Of a stretch of 64,000 nt of DNA, positions 44,541-50,720 are shown piece after piece (the first letter of the stretch is position 1; every line of letters starts with the position of its first letter). Origin of the DNA: Flavivirga abyssicola. Lineage in GTDB: Bacteria; Bacteroidota; Bacteroidia; Flavobacteriales; Flavobacteriaceae. Location of the stretch: the NCBI RefSeq assembly GCF_030540775.2, contig NZ_CP141266.1, positions 1,785,001 through 1,849,000 on the forward strand, in the 5' to 3' direction. The position numbers and the translations under genes are program-made. The notes under the pieces are model-generated. The model did not search any database and was not told where the DNA came from. It saw nothing but the letters and a program-made list of their open reading frames with translations.

Positions 44541-45206
44541 ATGAATATATTAATTGTAGAAGATCATCCATTGATTAGTGATGCTTATGAGAAAGCATTG
44601 TTGCATGTAAGTTCTAATAATACAGGTTTAAATTTTAATATAAATAAGGTTAAAAATTGCGATGATGCTTATTTGATGATTAAAGGCGCACAGAAAACAA
44701 AAATTGTTGATATTGTTTTTCTAGATATAAAATTACCACCCTCTAAGGATGGAAAGATAGTTTCAGGGGAAGATTTAGGCGTTAAAATTAGGATTCTTTT
44801 GCCAGATACTAAAATAATTATAGTTACAACATATAATGATAACTATAGAATTGGTAGTGTTTTTAGAAGTATAAACCCCGAAGGCTTTTTAATAAAGAAT
44901 GATTTAAGTCCTAAAGAACTTGTTTTAGCTATCGAAAAAATAATAGATAATATTCCACATTATAGTAAATCGGTAGTTCAATTGATGCGAAAATTGGCTT
45001 CTAATAATTTAGCGATAGATGAAATTGATAGACTATTATTATATGAGTTATCTCGTGGTACAAAAATGAGTGAATTACCACAAATAATACCACTTTCTAA
45101 AGCGGCCATAGAAAAAAGAAAGCGAACATTAAAAGAACTCTTTAATGTAAATAGCAAAAATGATAGAGATCTACTTAAAGTCGCAGAACAAAAAGGATTT
45201 ATTTAA
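44541..45206 (+). CDS. Response regulator, NarL-like with divergent HTH
   Basis: 221 aa. Receiver domain with acidic pair in [16 protein letters not shown], phospho-acceptor Asp in [16 protein letters not shown], Thr in [10 protein letters not shown] and Lys in EGFLIKND. The output domain is a LuxR-like HTH but unusual: [20 protein letters not shown], then [17 protein letters not shown], lacking the usual LTxRExEVL opening. Coupled to the TPR kinase. A paralogue with the same receiver and HTH words is cut by the window edge at 63464-64000, next to the secretion operon. Overlaps the convergent lepA by 4 bases. Confidence 0.92.
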
Positions 45207-46999
45207 TCATTAAGTTTTAAGACTGCCATAAATGCTTCTTGCGGAATTTCTACATTACCAACTTGACGCATACGTTTTTTACCTTTTTTCTGTTTTTCAA
45301 GAAGTTTACGTTTACGAGAAATATCACCACCATAACATTTAGCGGTAACATCTTTACGCAGTGCTTTTGTGGTTTCTCTAGAAATAATTTTAGCACCAAT
45401 AGCTGCTTGAATAGGGATATCGAATTGTTGACGTGGAATTAACTCTTTTAATTTTTCACACATCTTTTTACCAATATTCGCAGCATTATCTGCATGAATT
45501 AATGCAGAAAGGGCATCAACTGGTTGTGAGTTTAATAAGATATCTACACGAACTAATTTTGATTGTTTCATACCTATTGGATGATAATCAAAAGAAGCAT
45601 AACCTTTTGAAACTGTTTTTAAACGATCGTAAAAATCGAATACAATTTCAGCCAAAGGCATATCGAATGTTAATTCAACACGTTCTGTGGTTAAATATGT
45701 TTGATTGGTAATAAGGCCTCGTTTTTCAATACAAAGTGACATGACATTTCCAACAAAATCGGCTTTTGTGATAATCGTTGCTTTAATATAAGGTTCTTCA
45801 ACACGATCCAGGCCGGAAGGGTCTGGTAAATCGGACGGGTTATTAACAATAATAATGTCATCTGGATGCTTTCTTGTAAAAGCGTGGTATGATACGTTAG
45901 GAACAGTTGTAATAACAGTCATGTCAAATTCACGTTCTAAACGCTCCTGGATAATTTCCATATGGAGCATGCCTAGAAAGCCGCAACGGAAACCAAATCC
46001 TAAAGCAGCAGAACTTTCGGGAGCAAATACCAAAGAAGCATCATTTAATTGAAGCTTCTCCATAGATGCTCTTAACTCTTCGTAATCTTCGGTGTCTACA
46101 GGGTAAATACCTGCAAAAACCATAGGTTTCACATCTTCGAATCCGGCAATAGCATTTGTTGTTGGGTTTTTAGCATCAGTAATAGTATCACCAACTTTTA
46201 CTTCTTTCGCTTCTTTAATACCTGTAATGACGTAACCCACATCACCCGCTTTTATTTCTTGTCTAGGAAACTGTTTAAGTTTTAAAGTCCCAACTTCATC
46301 TGCGAAGTAATTTTTATCGGTAGCAATAAACTTAATGTTTTGTCCTTTTTTAATGGAACCGTTTATAACTCTAAAGTATGTTTCTACACCACGAAATGGA
46401 TTGTAAACCGAATCAAATATTAAGGCTTGTAATGGTTCGTCTATTTCGCCTTCAGGAGCAGGAACACGTTCAATAATGGCCTCTAAAATATTATCAACTC
46501 CAAAACCTGTTTTTCCACTGGCGTGAATCACTTCTTCGGGGTCGCAACCTAAAAGATCCACAATATCATCGGTTACTTCTTCAGGATTGGCACTTGGTAA
46601 ATCTACTTTATTAAGAACAGGGATAATTTCTAAATCATTTTCTAAAGCTAAATACAGATTAGAAATTGTTTGTGCTTGAATGCTTTGAGCAGCGTCTACA
46701 ATAAGTAAAGCCCCTTCGCAAGCAGCAATGGAACGGGACACTTCATAAGAGAAATCAACATGACCAGGAGTGTCAATTAAATTTAAAACATATTGTTCAC
46801 CTTTGTGCTCATACTCCATTTGTATGGCATGCGACTTTATAGTGATACCACGCTCACGTTCTAAATCCATACTGTCTAGAAGTTGGTCTTGCTTTTCTCT
46901 AGCCGTCACAGCTCCGGTATAATCCAATAAACGGTCTGCGAGCGTGCTCTTACCGTGATCTATATGTGCAATAATGCAAAAGTTTCTAATGTGCTTCAT
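45203..46999 (-). CDS. lepA: Elongation factor 4 (LepA)
   Basis: 598 aa from the ATG at 46999 ([19 protein letters not shown]). GTPase motifs: AHIDHGKST (G1), RGITIKSHA (G2), DTPGHVDF (G3), NKVDLP (G4). The C-terminal LepA-specific part ends [20 protein letters not shown]. Ribosome-associated factor that back-translocates or remodels stalled ribosomes. The frame's earlier TTG codon at 47005 is not needed; a purine-rich ggag lies about 10 bases before the ATG, and TATATTTG (minus strand, 47029-47036) is a good -7 promoter element. Confidence 0.97.
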
Positions 47000-47028
47000 A
47001 GTCAAAAATCTCCGTAAAAAAGATTCTG

Positions 47029-47089: not shown

Positions 47090-47269
47090 TTATAATATCA
47101 TAGCTCCACAAACACCTAAGCTTACAATAACATAAATGGCGGCCAAAATAAATAAAACTTTGGCTGCTTTTTTGTTTTTTTTAAGAATGGCTAACCCTAT
47201 AATAGTTAATAAAATAGCTGGGCCAAACATAATAGCTAGAATTAAGTATATCAAGCCATCTAGATTCAT
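47090..47269 (-). CDS. Two-helix mini membrane protein (paralogue 2)
   Basis: 59 aa from the ATG at 47269 (MNLDGLIYLILAIMFGP); the longer frame to 47293 is possible. Two membrane segments with a short basic loop KKNKKAAK between them and a final SLGVCGAMIL. It is a clear tandem duplicate of the next gene (same layout: AIMFxPxxLLxIIGLAI, loop, VxSLGxCGxMx). Function unknown. Last in the Lgt-like/radical SAM operon. Confidence 0.75.
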   Translation of the reverse strand: MNLDGLIYLILAIMFGPAILLTIIGLAILKKNKKAAKVLFILAAIYVIVSLGVCGAMIL

Positions 47270-47303
47270 CTTACCTTCTAAAAAGTATAACATAATTAAA
47301 TTT

Positions 47304-47507
47304 TTATATCATCATACTTCCGCATATGCCAAGGCTTATTAAAAGATAAACCACTGCTAGAATCATAAGTATTTTTGATGTTTTTCGATTTTTTGATCTA
47401 ATAGCCAACCCTATAATTAGTAGAATTAATGGAGGTAAAAACATAATAGCTAAAACCAGTAAAAACAAACCCAGATAATTTCCGCCTTCAATGATTAGAA
47501 TAGTCAT
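47304..47507 (-). CDS. Two-helix mini membrane protein (paralogue 1)
   Basis: 67 aa. MTILIIEGGNYLGLFLLVLA opens the first helix, SKNRKTSK forms the basic loop, and LLISLGICGSMMI ends the second helix. Its ATG overlaps the TGA of the radical SAM gene (ATGA), so it is translationally coupled to that enzyme. Together with its paralogue it may be a membrane partner of the lipid-modifying enzymes upstream, but this rests only on position. Confidence 0.78.
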   Translation of the reverse strand: MTILIIEGGNYLGLFLLVLAIMFLPPLILLIIGLAIRSKNRKTSKILMILAVVYLLISLGICGSMMI

Positions 47508-48898
47508 AATATATTGTTTCTAAGTTCTTCTAAATAGTCTTTTTTATCATCCCTGTAAAATAAATTCATGGTTTCAAAAGGGATAATTTTATTGTATTTG
47601 TCTACAATATGCACGCAGGATTTTTTAATAGCACGAACATCAAAATTATAAGCATCAATAAACTGCATGATAATAACGCGAAATAAATTATCATAACCCA
47701 AATTTGGAGCGTCAATATTAGGAAGGCAACACATAATAGACTTCAAATTTTCTTCAGCTACTTCAACGGAGTTTCCAGTGCTAAAAAGTTCTATCATTTT
47801 GCCTTGAAGGTTTTCATCTTGCTCATAAATAATAGTATTTTTGCTATTATCTAATAAATCATTTGGATTTATGTACCTGGTTAACGGAAATACATCGTCT
47901 CCCAATTTAAGAGCATAGCCCATTACCAAAGCGTCTGGGTTACATGGTACAGGAAGTAAATCGTCTGGATTGAAAATATTGGTTTGCTCCATGATCTTTC
48001 GACGTACTTCTGTTAATGTCATTCTATCAGTTTCCGGATTAAAATGCTCTAGTCTTCCTGCTATCTGCGTTGGTTGAAATGTGACGCCCCGAACACATTT
48101 TTGCTTTAAAGCATACTCTATTATTTTACCAATTTCATGGTCGTTTAAACCCTTTTGAAGGGTTACTACTAATGTCGTTGATAAATTAAGTTGATTTAAA
48201 TTCTCAAGGGCTTGTTTTCTTATATCGTTTAAATCGGCACCACGAAGTTCTTGCAACACGCTATTTTCAAAAGAATCAAATTGAAGATAAATTTCAAAAT
48301 CTGGTGCATAGGTTTTTAATTTTTCCGCAAAAGCGACATCTTTAGCAATTTTAATACCATTAGTATTCAGCATTAAATGCCTAATAGGTAATGATTTTGC
48401 GTAATCTAAAATTTCAAAAAACTGTGGATGTATGGTAGGTTCACCGCCACTTATTTGCACTACATCAGGTTCTTTTTCGTTAGCAACTATAGTGTCCAAC
48501 ATGGTTTTTACTTCCTCAAGAGTACGATGTCTTCCATACGTTGGGGATGAACCAGCATAACAGGTGGGACAGGTTAAATTACAACGGTCTGTAACTTCAA
48601 CAACGGTTAAACAAGAATGTTGTTCGTGATCTGGGCATAAGCCGCAATCATAAGGACAACCATAATCGGTTTTAGTATTAAATTTATAGGGTGTTTCAGA
48701 AGGTTTATTATAGTTTCTAATGTTTTTATAGTAGTCTATATCGTCGGCTATTAACACTTTAGAATTGCCATGTTCGTTGCAACGCTTTAGCATGTAAACA
48801 TGACCATTTTCGAATACAATCTTAGCATCTACACGCTTTAAACATTCTGGGCAAAGGCTGAGTGTGAAATCGTAGTAGGTATATTTTCTAACGGGCAT
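47504..48898 (-). CDS. Radical SAM protein with extra Cys clusters (Tes-like)
   Basis: 464 aa. The radical SAM cluster motif CNLTCPTCY (CxxxCxxC) is near residue 108, followed by VVQISGGEPTIHPQFF. In front of it is an N-terminal Cys pair LCPEC, a rubredoxin-like zinc or iron site, and GCPYDCGLCPDHEQHSC, an additional cluster. This layout, including the CxxCGLC block, is that of the archaeal tetraether synthase (Tes) relatives and allied MoaA-like enzymes. The start overlaps the Lgt-like membrane protein gene by 11 bases, so the enzyme probably acts on a lipid or lipoprotein at the membrane. Substrate not proven. Confidence 0.85.
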   Translation of the reverse strand: MPVRKYTYYDFTLSLCPECLKRVDAKIVFENGHVYMLKRCNEHGNSKVLIADDIDYYKNIRNYNKPSETPYKFNTKTDYGCPYDCGLCPDHEQHSCLTVVEVTDRCNLTCPTCYAGSSPTYGRHRTLEEVKTMLDTIVANEKEPDVVQISGGEPTIHPQFFEILDYAKSLPIRHLMLNTNGIKIAKDVAFAEKLKTYAPDFEIYLQFDSFENSVLQELRGADLNDIRKQALENLNQLNLSTTLVVTLQKGLNDHEIGKIIEYALKQKCVRGVTFQPTQIAGRLEHFNPETDRMTLTEVRRKIMEQTNIFNPDDLLPVPCNPDALVMGYALKLGDDVFPLTRYINPNDLLDNSKNTIIYEQDENLQGKMIELFSTGNSVEVAEENLKSIMCCLPNIDAPNLGYDNLFRVIIMQFIDAYNFDVRAIKKSCVHIVDKYNKIIPFETMNLFYRDDKKDYLEELRNNIL

Positions 48899-49631
48899 TT
48901 TTAACGATGTTTAAAATAGTTTTGTGATAATAAAGCAAACAAATTAGACATAATATTTGAATCGTACTTAATCCAAAGAAATAAAATACATTTGGTTTTA
49001 AAAGTTCTATGAAAAATCTAAATGCAAAATAGAGAATCATAAACCATTTAAACAAATCACCATTTTTTAAGGTTGTTTTATTTTTAATACGGTTTAAGCT
49101 GAAAAACAGTAGGATTAGGAAAATCAATTCGTATAAAGCTATAGGGTGACGTAATTGTGCGTCACCTAAATTCATACCGAAGATAGAAGTGGTTTCTATA
49201 CCATAAGTGAATTCGTTAATACCAGATAGAAAGCACCCTATTCTGCCAATAAAAATGCCTAAAATAATGGGAAATACAAATAAATCACCTGATGATTGGG
49301 TTTCTCCTATGCGCTTTTTAGCAATTTCGACACCAAGTAAGCCCCCAAACAATCCACCCATAATAGTTTTTGTATTGAGTAATTGAATGATGTTTTCTTG
49401 CGAAATATCAACAAAGGGGTTTTCTAAAAAACCAACCAGCCTGGAACCAATTAATGCCCCAAGAGCAGCACCTAAAATAATGGATAGTCTATTGTTTGAT
49501 GAAATAACATCGTTACTTTTTCTTCTTAAAAGAATATAATACCTAAAGGCTATAAAAAATGCCAGATATTCTAAAACCAGATGGATGTTTATATTGTATC
49601 CAAAAAGAATGGGATTGTAAGGAATATTCAA
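48888..49631 (-). CDS. Lgt-like integral membrane protein, likely not a standard Lgt
   Basis: 247 aa from a TTG codon, seven or so membrane segments. Resembles prolipoprotein diacylglyceryl transferase: ILGAALGALIGSRLVGFLEN, GRIGCFLSGINEFTYGIET (compare GRxGNFxNxE) and LRHPIALYELIFL. Where Lgt has HGGLxG with its essential His, this protein has FGGLLG, and the GNF of the signature is GCF. It is therefore either inactive as Lgt or does different lipid chemistry. Operon with a Tes-like radical SAM enzyme (11-base overlap). Confidence 0.8.
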   Translation of the reverse strand: MNIPYNPILFGYNINIHLVLEYLAFFIAFRYYILLRRKSNDVISSNNRLSIILGAALGALIGSRLVGFLENPFVDISQENIIQLLNTKTIMGGLFGGLLGVEIAKKRIGETQSSGDLFVFPIILGIFIGRIGCFLSGINEFTYGIETTSIFGMNLGDAQLRHPIALYELIFLILLFFSLNRIKNKTTLKNGDLFKWFMILYFAFRFFIELLKPNVFYFFGLSTIQILCLICLLYYHKTILNIVKNAR

Positions 49632-49724
49632 AAAAAGCTAAATTTTTAGTTTTAAAAATACAACAATATTAAAGGGGATAACTAATTTGATTAAAAAACA
49701 GTAATTTTGCCCAAAATTTATGAT

Positions 49725-50720
49725 GTGGTAAAAATAGACAACATAGAACTTCCAAATTTTCCATTGCTTTTAGCTCCTATGGAAGATGTTAGTGATCCGC
49801 CGTTTCGTGCTTTGTGTAAGGAGCAGGGAGCAGATGTTGTATATACCGAGTTTGTGTCCAGCGAGGGTTTAATTCGTAATGCGGCTAAAAGTGTTATGAA
49901 GTTAGATATTTATGAGAAAGAGCGTCCAGTAGGGATTCAAATTTTTGGAGCTAATTTAGACAGTATGCTACAGACTATTGATATTGTTTCTGCTTCAAAA
50001 CCAGATATTATCGATATTAATTTTGGTTGCCCTGTAAAAAAAGTGGTGAGTAAAGGCGCAGGCGCAGGTATTTTGAAAGATGTGTGTTTGATGGAGAAGC
50101 TTACTGCCGAAATGGTTAAACGAACTAATATCCCAGTTACTGTTAAAACTCGTTTGGGTTGGGATCATGATTCTATAAGAATAGTTGAGGTTGCAGAAAG
50201 GTTACAAGATGTTGGTTGTAAGGCTATTGCTATACATGGGCGTACCAGAGCGCAAATGTATAAGGGTGATGCTGATTGGAAGCCTATTGCTGAGGTAAAA
50301 AATAATCCGCGTATGCATATTCCTGTGTTTGGAAATGGTGATGTGGATAGTCCAGAAAGAGCTGTAGAAATGCGAGATAGCTATGGACTTGATGGCGCTA
50401 TGATTGGTCGTGCTACTATTGGAAACCCATGGTTTTTTAAGCAAGTCAAACATTATTTTGAGACAGGCGAACATCTAGCACCTATATCTTTAGCGGAGCG
50501 TGTTGAGGCTGCTCGTAGACATTTACAAATGTCCATTGATTGGAAAGGTGAAATTCTAGGTGTTTTCGAAACCCGTAGACATTACACTAATTATTTTAAA
50601 GGTATTCCACACTTTAAAGAATACCGTATGAAAATGGTAACCAGCGATCATTCAGCAGATGTGTTTGCTGCTTTTGATGAAGTATTAGAAAAGTTTTCAG
50701 ATTATCAGTTTACCGAATAA
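49725..50720 (+). CDS. dusB: tRNA-dihydrouridine synthase
   Basis: 331 aa from the GTG at 49725 (reading MVKIDNIELPNFPLLLAPME), which matches how the family usually begins. A TTG at 49707 would add six residues but lies inside TAATTTTG, a -7 promoter element. FMN-binding TIM barrel: LLLAPMEDVSDPPFRALC, NFGCPVKKVVSKGAGAG (catalytic Cys), KTRLGW, IHGRTRAQMYKG and DGAMIGRATIGNPW. Reduces specific uridines in the tRNA D-loop. Confidence 0.93.
   Translation: MVKIDNIELPNFPLLLAPMEDVSDPPFRALCKEQGADVVYTEFVSSEGLIRNAAKSVMKLDIYEKERPVGIQIFGANLDSMLQTIDIVSASKPDIIDINFGCPVKKVVSKGAGAGILKDVCLMEKLTAEMVKRTNIPVTVKTRLGWDHDSIRIVEVAERLQDVGCKAIAIHGRTRAQMYKGDADWKPIAEVKNNPRMHIPVFGNGDVDSPERAVEMRDSYGLDGAMIGRATIGNPWFFKQVKHYFETGEHLAPISLAERVEAARRHLQMSIDWKGEILGVFETRRHYTNYFKGIPHFKEYRMKMVTSDHSADVFAAFDEVLEKFSDYQFTE

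Follow-up and report, generated by a model that had tools for sequence, protein, structure and literature searches.

Four minus-strand genes of Flavivirga abyssicola form a genuine operon between lepA and dusB, at positions 47090-49631 of the 64,000-nucleotide stretch analysed here (contig NZ_CP141266.1, positions 1,785,001 to 1,849,000; hereafter the window). They encode an Lgt-like membrane protein, a radical SAM (rSAM) enzyme related to the tetraether synthase Tes, and two small membrane proteins, called minis in the following. The module to which these genes belong looks like an undescribed route for the modification of membrane proteins with lipid at their C-terminal end. The explanation that we tentatively prefer is a three-part lipid-modification module in which the minis are the substrates and are lipidated at a C-terminal Cys by the Lgt paralogue. 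Each substrate would present a transmembrane (TM) helix whose extracytoplasmic end bears a single Cys, in surroundings that resemble a lipobox, [FL]-G-[AISVT]-C. The Lgt paralogue would attach a diacylglyceryl group, or a similar glycerolipid, to this Cys, and the product would be a C-terminally lipidated protein with its helix uncleaved. The Tes-like enzyme, with a fold that binds lipid tails, would activate a C-H bond of that lipid and tailor or join acyl tails, those of the donor lipid or those of the protein-bound lipid; the exact radical reaction is speculative. We infer that the Cys is the lipid acceptor because the set of small proteins shares only a helix end and a Cys, and is encoded beside an Lgt-family protein that keeps its donor residues. 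The presence of a Tes-like enzyme, in turn, suggests C-H chemistry on a lipid.

Small membrane proteins with a C-terminal cysteine

The product of the first mini gene (47304..47507, minus strand; 67 aa) is a two-TM hairpin with a predicted cytoplasmic KxxK loop and the C-terminal sequence ...SLGICGSMMI. The second (47090..47293, minus strand; 67 aa) is a paralogue of the first (55% identity, E 4.7e-15) that ends in ...SLGVCGAMIL, and no third copy was found in the genome. Both share the same C-terminal Cys motif; the proposed modification site of mini 1 is C62 (codon at 47322..47324, minus strand), which in mini 2 is also C62 (codon at 47108..47110, minus strand). An earlier note on this DNA had described the pair as tandem two-helix proteins. 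That description was confirmed, and what it overlooked is the strongest clue, the invariant C-terminal Cys: in an alignment of 24 minis from Flavobacteriaceae, I49, G60 and C62 are the only invariant positions.

The same feature is found in the small proteins of related operons, which number 1 to ~5 per locus, measure 39 to ~200 aa and have one to four helices, some of them with N-terminal zinc ribbons. Between groups they are often without evident sequence similarity. Otherwise dissimilar, nearly all of them have a terminal TM helix and a Cys, with a tail of mostly 3-15 residues, and the smallest Cys-tailed proteins (39-44 aa) have a single helix. In 121 of 143 rSAM-bearing loci, some of which overlap, there is a chained small TM open reading frame (ORF) that has a Cys among its final 25 residues. 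The strict C-terminal Cys motif was found in 126/192 chained small ORFs versus 19/6691 others, and these 19 are mostly operon minis that the chaining rule had missed. Relaxed searches recovered minis in 10 of the 11 loci that were rechecked, locus L122 being the exception. A control counting any Cys in the last 25 residues was discarded, as 53% of the other small TM-like ORFs have one; it is useless because out-of-frame ORFs are Cys-rich, and the strict motif was used instead.

Over 159 distinct sequences, the consensus at the Cys has F or L at position -3, G (101 sequences) or A/S at -2, A/I/S/V/T at -1 and G/F/A/S at +1. On average there are 3.25 Lys and Arg residues in the segment ahead of the last helix, and the tail has 0.28. 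Because of this distribution and the positive-inside rule, the Cys is predicted to be extracytoplasmic, and the active site of Lgt lies on that same side of the membrane (PMC4728403). Two proteins with differing N-terminal parts, a soluble segment in one (L090:4455-4958) and a zinc ribbon in the other (L099:8237-8686), have the same Cys tail, which suggests a portable tag. Another arrangement is that of a Ktedonobacterales locus (L113:3522-4840), where three tandem small TM ORFs, whose frames overlap as listed, lie between the Lgt-like and rSAM genes and all have G-C tails. Assignment of the minis to a named family was rejected, since the weak matches obtained (DUF4064, lipo-invert, CCC motif) were all below threshold.

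These proteins are also where an alternative has to be weighed, in which both enzymes modify free membrane lipids, giving a tail-modified or membrane-spanning phospholipid, with the minis as subunits of a scaffolding or regulatory kind, their Cys serving as metal ligand, disulfide partner or point of contact with the enzyme. The substrates of Tes are indeed free archaeal lipids, and phospholipid tails are bound in its structure (PMC9433317); the donor site of the Lgt-like protein is conserved, and the variation in the copy number of the minis would be possible for accessory proteins. However, a multicopy, unconserved partner that keeps only a helix end and a Cys has the pattern of a substrate tag and not that of a structured subunit, and a free-lipid pathway does not need an Lgt-family protein. 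We therefore regard this alternative as unlikely, albeit the most serious of those considered.

Gene order and distribution of the module

The ORFs of the four genes, which the earlier note had described as overlapping or tightly spaced, were confirmed: the Lgt-like gene overlaps the rSAM gene by 11 nt, the latter overlaps the mini 1 gene by 4 nt, and the mini 2 gene follows after a 10-nt gap. This arrangement is not due to chance, because it is kept in tens of genera. Of 199 Flavobacteriaceae genomes, 24 have the rSAM protein (at 79-100% identity) and exactly the same 24 have the Lgt-like one; the mini profile finds 23 of these carriers plus four other genomes. Among carriers with a name, Seonamhaeicola algicola is the closest seen, and its rSAM protein is 92% identical to that of the window.

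A genome-wide scan and context analysis found the module (Lgt-like protein, rSAM protein and small membrane proteins) in other phyla too, including Bacteroidota, Bacillota, Chloroflexota, Acidobacteriota, Chlorobi, Actinomycetota and others. The set, treated in the earlier note as a local oddity, is in fact a widespread module. Two gene orders occur. In type I (Bacteroidota, Bacilli and members of Acidobacteriota, Spirochaetota and Planctomycetota) the order is lgt-like, rSAM and mini(s). In type II (Chlorobi, Clostridium, Actinomycetota, Elusimicrobiota, Patescibacteria and others) it is rSAM, ICMT-like methyltransferase, DUF4395 protein, lgt-like and small TM protein. In the type II loci L069, L073 and L087-L111, the rSAM gene is separated from the Lgt-like gene by those for the methyltransferase and for a DUF4395 protein rich in Cys; the ICMT-like methyltransferase class includes Cys-lipid enzymes. 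As for rSAM loci with no visible Lgt-like gene, nine of ten genomes have an Lgt-like match elsewhere (two of the nine weak or partial). Carriers include culturable members of Flavobacterium, Paenibacillus, Bacillus, Hymenobacter and Mucilaginibacter. A type II pair of Lgt-like and rSAM genes was also seen on a contig binned as archaeal (L101, DUGD01000090.1, labelled Woesearchaeota); Lgt has been reported absent from archaea (PMC13251419), and the label may be a binning error.

An Lgt paralogue with a conserved donor site

The Lgt-like gene (48888..49631, minus strand) starts with TTG and encodes an integral membrane protein of 247 aa. It matches Pfam LGT (7.6e-25) and scores 48.7 bits against TIGR00544, under the equivalog cut-off of 118.9. 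For its AlphaFold2 model (pLDDT 82), the sole PDB match with E <0.001 was E. coli Lgt (5azb; Foldseek E 2.5e-5). Residues were mapped in an alignment of 123 operon proteins and 17 canonical ones and are given in E. coli Lgt numbering, with window residues in brackets. The window protein retains R143 (R130), R239 (R205), E243 (E209), Y235 (Y201), E202 (E168) and G154 (G144), and is without H103 (M91), N146 (C133; codon at 49233..49235, minus strand) and E151 (I138). Among the 123 operon proteins the donor-site arginines R143 and R239 are invariant, G154 is conserved, as is the HP of TM5, Y235 and E202 are nearly always present, and E243 is E or D. The position of H103 is V or M, also T. E151 and N149 have disappeared, and four other residues (K105, G97, D157 and R161) have become invariant. 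N146 is replaced by Cys in all of the aligned operon proteins, a set that was chosen partly by that motif.

In Lgt, R143 and R239 are part of the donor site and the HGGL motif has been proposed to bind the lipobox peptide (Mao et al., PMC4728403); the two arginines bind phosphatidylglycerol in that enzyme. With the donor residues kept and HGGL changed, the Lgt-like protein has probably retained its lipid-donor side and altered its peptide-facing side. The earlier note had read FGGLLG in place of HGGL. The loss of the His holds, the H103 position being M91 in TIM-GGL-FGGLLG, but FGGLLG itself is the neighbouring GG pair; its reading of GCF for GNF was correct, with C133 at the position of E. 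coli N146. E. coli Lgt cannot do without either H103 or N146 (PMC4728403, PMC13251419). The Lgt of Firmicutes and Actinobacteria, though, has Y/W in place of H103, other true Lgts can have Y, W or F there, and N146C occurs in Leptospira Lgt and in MSMEG_5408 of M. smegmatis (PMC13251419). The loss of H103 was dropped as a main argument, as bona fide Lgts can be without it (PMC13251419). The lipid or lipoprotein modification proposed in the earlier note is still the most plausible class of function, for which the His loss by itself is weak evidence. The two checks that the note had named as possible refutations favoured it: the genome has a canonical lgt, and the rSAM protein does not group with peptide maturases.

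A much simpler role, that of a second Lgt for ordinary N-terminal lipoproteins, has very little probability. It is true that ~1,300 genomes have two lgt copies, and that there are N146C homologues whose Lgt activity is presumed to be low (PMC13251419). Nevertheless, a canonical lgt was found in every genome tested, namely in this one (G000:C1:633705, 200 bits), where the earlier note had proposed to look for it, and in 16/16 other carriers. Moreover, the operon copies are one clade across phyla, lying on one side of the branch that separates them from canonical Lgts (support 97/96), and their pairing with the rSAM protein is exact in the 199 genomes. A second GRIGCF-type Lgt-like protein outside an operon was seen in Youngiibacter fragilis (L192, G582), on a long branch near the canonical Lgts.

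A radical SAM enzyme close to Tes

The rSAM gene (47504..48898, minus strand) encodes a protein of 464 aa with matches to Pfam Radical_SAM (6.3e-25) and to the HMPTM N-terminal Zn ribbon (1.3e-19). Its similarity to Tes (GDGT-MAS, PDB 7tol) reaches 3.9e-69, and 2.7e-95 with a profile, and that to the peptide maturase SkfB is far weaker (1.5e-5, and 4.4e-10 with a profile). A Foldseek search with the model of a homologue (from L073) gave 7tom with E 1.7e-34 and a TM-score of 0.79, followed by MoaA (3.6e-9). Sequence, profile, structure search and tree agree in grouping the enzyme with Tes and not with peptide maturases, as the earlier note had anticipated. Its claim that three Cys clusters are arranged as in Tes also stood, residue by residue. 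With Tes numbered as in PMC9433317, the rubredoxin-like site C16-x2-C19-x20-C40-x2-H43 has the spacing of Tes C9/C12/C33/H36, the [4Fe4S]N ligands are C81, C85, C88 and H91 (CX3CX2C plus His, as in Tes), and the radical SAM cluster is C106-x3-C110-x2-C113. The Cys of all three sites are invariant in 139 operon rSAM proteins, and the fourth ligand of the rubredoxin site is His in 132 and Cys in 7 of them.

The C-terminal part is different. The pattern of the Tes C-terminal auxiliary cluster, whose Cys ligands in Tes were assigned from conservation, was not found in the operon rSAM proteins. Conserved in these are instead C96, C319 and C428, joined in type I by C390/C391, and they may replace the C-terminal cluster ligands. 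The position of Tes Met439 is Met in 92/110 type I proteins and T/S in type II. The best NCBIfam model for the window protein, over nearly its full length, is TrsS (NF045646; 328 bits, cut-off 490), against which six other operon members score 312-382 bits; the Tes model (NF045702) gives 290 bits, with a cut-off of 450. In a tree with only three outgroup rows, the operon rSAM group stands apart from these three Tes-like sequences (SH-aLRT 100).

Two rival roles for this enzyme can be judged from these data. According to the first, which seems improbable to us, it modifies the peptide chain of the minis, as in ribosomally synthesised and post-translationally modified peptides or by linking their C-terminal Cys in a thioether, and the part played by the Lgt-like protein is limited to presenting or exporting them. 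Small multicopy proteins beside an rSAM enzyme do look like precursor peptides, and H103 and N146 of Lgt are lost. Against this, the enzyme matches Tes at 1e-69 to 1e-95 and maturases such as SkfB at 1e-5 to 1e-10, and the Cys is predicted to be outside whereas the rSAM enzyme is expected in the cytoplasm. According to the second, to which we give still less credit, it is a bacterial Tes making membrane-spanning lipids, in line with what has been suggested on bacterial homologues of Tes and branched glycerol dialkyl glycerol tetraethers (brGDGTs), with incidental neighbours. The fold and three of the four metal sites are as in Tes, and brGDGT roles have been proposed for bacterial homologues (Zeng et al., PMC8941075). 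However, the enzyme is under the Tes equivalog cut-off, belongs to a separate clade and has a changed C-terminal Cys pattern, and the strict co-occurrence with the Lgt-like protein and the minis would be left unexplained. Furthermore, rSAM proteins closer to Tes (493.8 and 441.9 bits; L071 and L072) occur separately in Bacteroidota, with no module nearby.

Genomic site and decay of the module

In the window, the operon is followed downstream by a lepA-type GTPase gene (45203..47005, minus strand), outside the module, and has as divergent upstream neighbour a tRNA-dihydrouridine synthase (Dus) gene (49707..50720, plus strand; Pfam Dus 6.9e-84). Both genes mark a conserved site, and the layout lepA-[module or remnant]-dusB is also found at loci L217 and L219. 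Three of the four additional genomes found with the mini profile (G152, G072 and G003) represent stages of module decay; the fourth, G187, gave a weak match and has no module remnants. At the lepA-dusB site of G152 (L217, G152:C2:494000-503000) the beginning of the Lgt-like gene meets the end of that for the rSAM protein in a scar, and the mini is intact. At that of G072 (L219, G072:C7:754000-764000) there are broken rSAM fragments and a mini remnant. In G003 (L218, G003:C71) the enzymes have been lost, an rSAM remnant persists and the mini has lost its Cys.

Weighing the C-terminal lipidation model

The decay series supports lipidation of the minis: in G003 the Cys is gone along with the enzymes, and G152 and G072 are further stages. 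Likewise in its favour are the similarity of the rSAM protein to Tes, a lipid-tail enzyme, greater than to any other, and the ICMT-like methyltransferase that type II operons bring. Several points weigh against it. The support is computational: it shows a conserved module, its co-occurrence, the Cys motif, a predicted topology and the residue patterns of donor and metal sites, and both the lipid transfer and the radical step are deduced from it. H103 and N146 are both lost, so that transferase activity is not assured; the residues at -2 and -1 (G, then A/I/S/V/T) are unlike the canonical lipobox. In the rSAM protein the third (C-terminal) cluster is altered with respect to Tes, whose C338, C455 and C470 are not kept, and Tes chemistry therefore cannot be assumed. 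With Lgt on the outer face and the rSAM enzyme in the cytoplasm, their meeting at one lipid is unexplained. The minis could be subunits instead of substrates, and G152 keeps an intact mini without the enzymes, the loss of which is probably a recent deletion.

A bolder version of the proposal, rather unlikely in our estimation, would be a separate and widespread protein-lipidation pathway, in which a glycerolipid is placed on the extracytoplasmic C-terminal Cys of a TM helix and its tails are radically coupled or tailored by the Tes-like enzyme. The product would be a lipid bound to protein, which might span the membrane and would be missed by ordinary extraction. Bacterial tetraether synthase homologues have no known role (PMC9433317, PMC8941075), and the module provides at least one sizeable group of them with a specific partner enzyme and a specific candidate substrate. 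An open question is thus turned into a simple mass-spectrometry question on a 67-residue protein. If C-terminal lipidation is true, bacterial proteins receive lipid at the C-terminal end of a helix that is not removed, and such lipoproteins lie outside what is sought by predictors based on N-terminal signal peptides.

Comparison with known systems

No description of the module was found in the searchable literature, with subscription papers and preprints outside its reach. The system has parts in common with several known ones. With Lgt (PF01790, TIGR00544; 5azb) the Lgt-like protein shares the fold, the residues R143, R239, Y235, E202, E243 and G154, and the GG of HGGL, but it is without H103, has N146C, has lost E151 and belongs to a separate clade; Lgt acts alone, whereas its paralogue here is linked to Cys-tailed minis and an rSAM enzyme. 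With Tes (NF045702, 7tol/7tom) the rSAM protein has in common the domain order and the ligands of the rubredoxin-like iron, the [4Fe4S]N cluster and the radical SAM cluster, as well as, in most type I operons, the Met at the position of Met439. It differs in its C-terminal Cys, in being bacterial and in being paired with an Lgt paralogue. The TrsS radical SAM (seleno)protein family gives the best-scoring model, yet under its equivalog cut-off, and radical SAM peptide maturases are not the closest kin.

Another known entry is NF058595, the "lipo-invert putative C-terminal anchoring domain", to judge by its name a C-terminal anchor resembling a lipobox. It is matched weakly by minis of this group, with E 0.022, 0.18 and 0.11 and 12-15 bits (15.1 and 12.2 for those of the window), against a cut-off of 37, and neither this genome nor 16 further carriers gave a match above the cut-off; its identity with the present system was therefore rejected. 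Many weak NF058595 matches of Paenibacillus fall in longer frames, which seem to be ordinary lipoprotein signal peptides.

Finally, N-terminal lipoproteins (Lgt-Lsp-Lnt) have, like the minis, a positive segment, a hydrophobic helix and a Cys after small residues. Their canonical lipobox is [LVI][ASTVI][GAS]C (PMC4728403). The minis fail the lipobox test of these lipoproteins: their Cys is at the C-terminal end, with Gly at -2 and not at -1, where I or V is frequent. Because of this position of the Cys and of the Gly, cleavage by Lsp seems unlikely and the helix would stay. In contrast to N-terminal lipoproteins, the minis have an rSAM enzyme encoded nearby.

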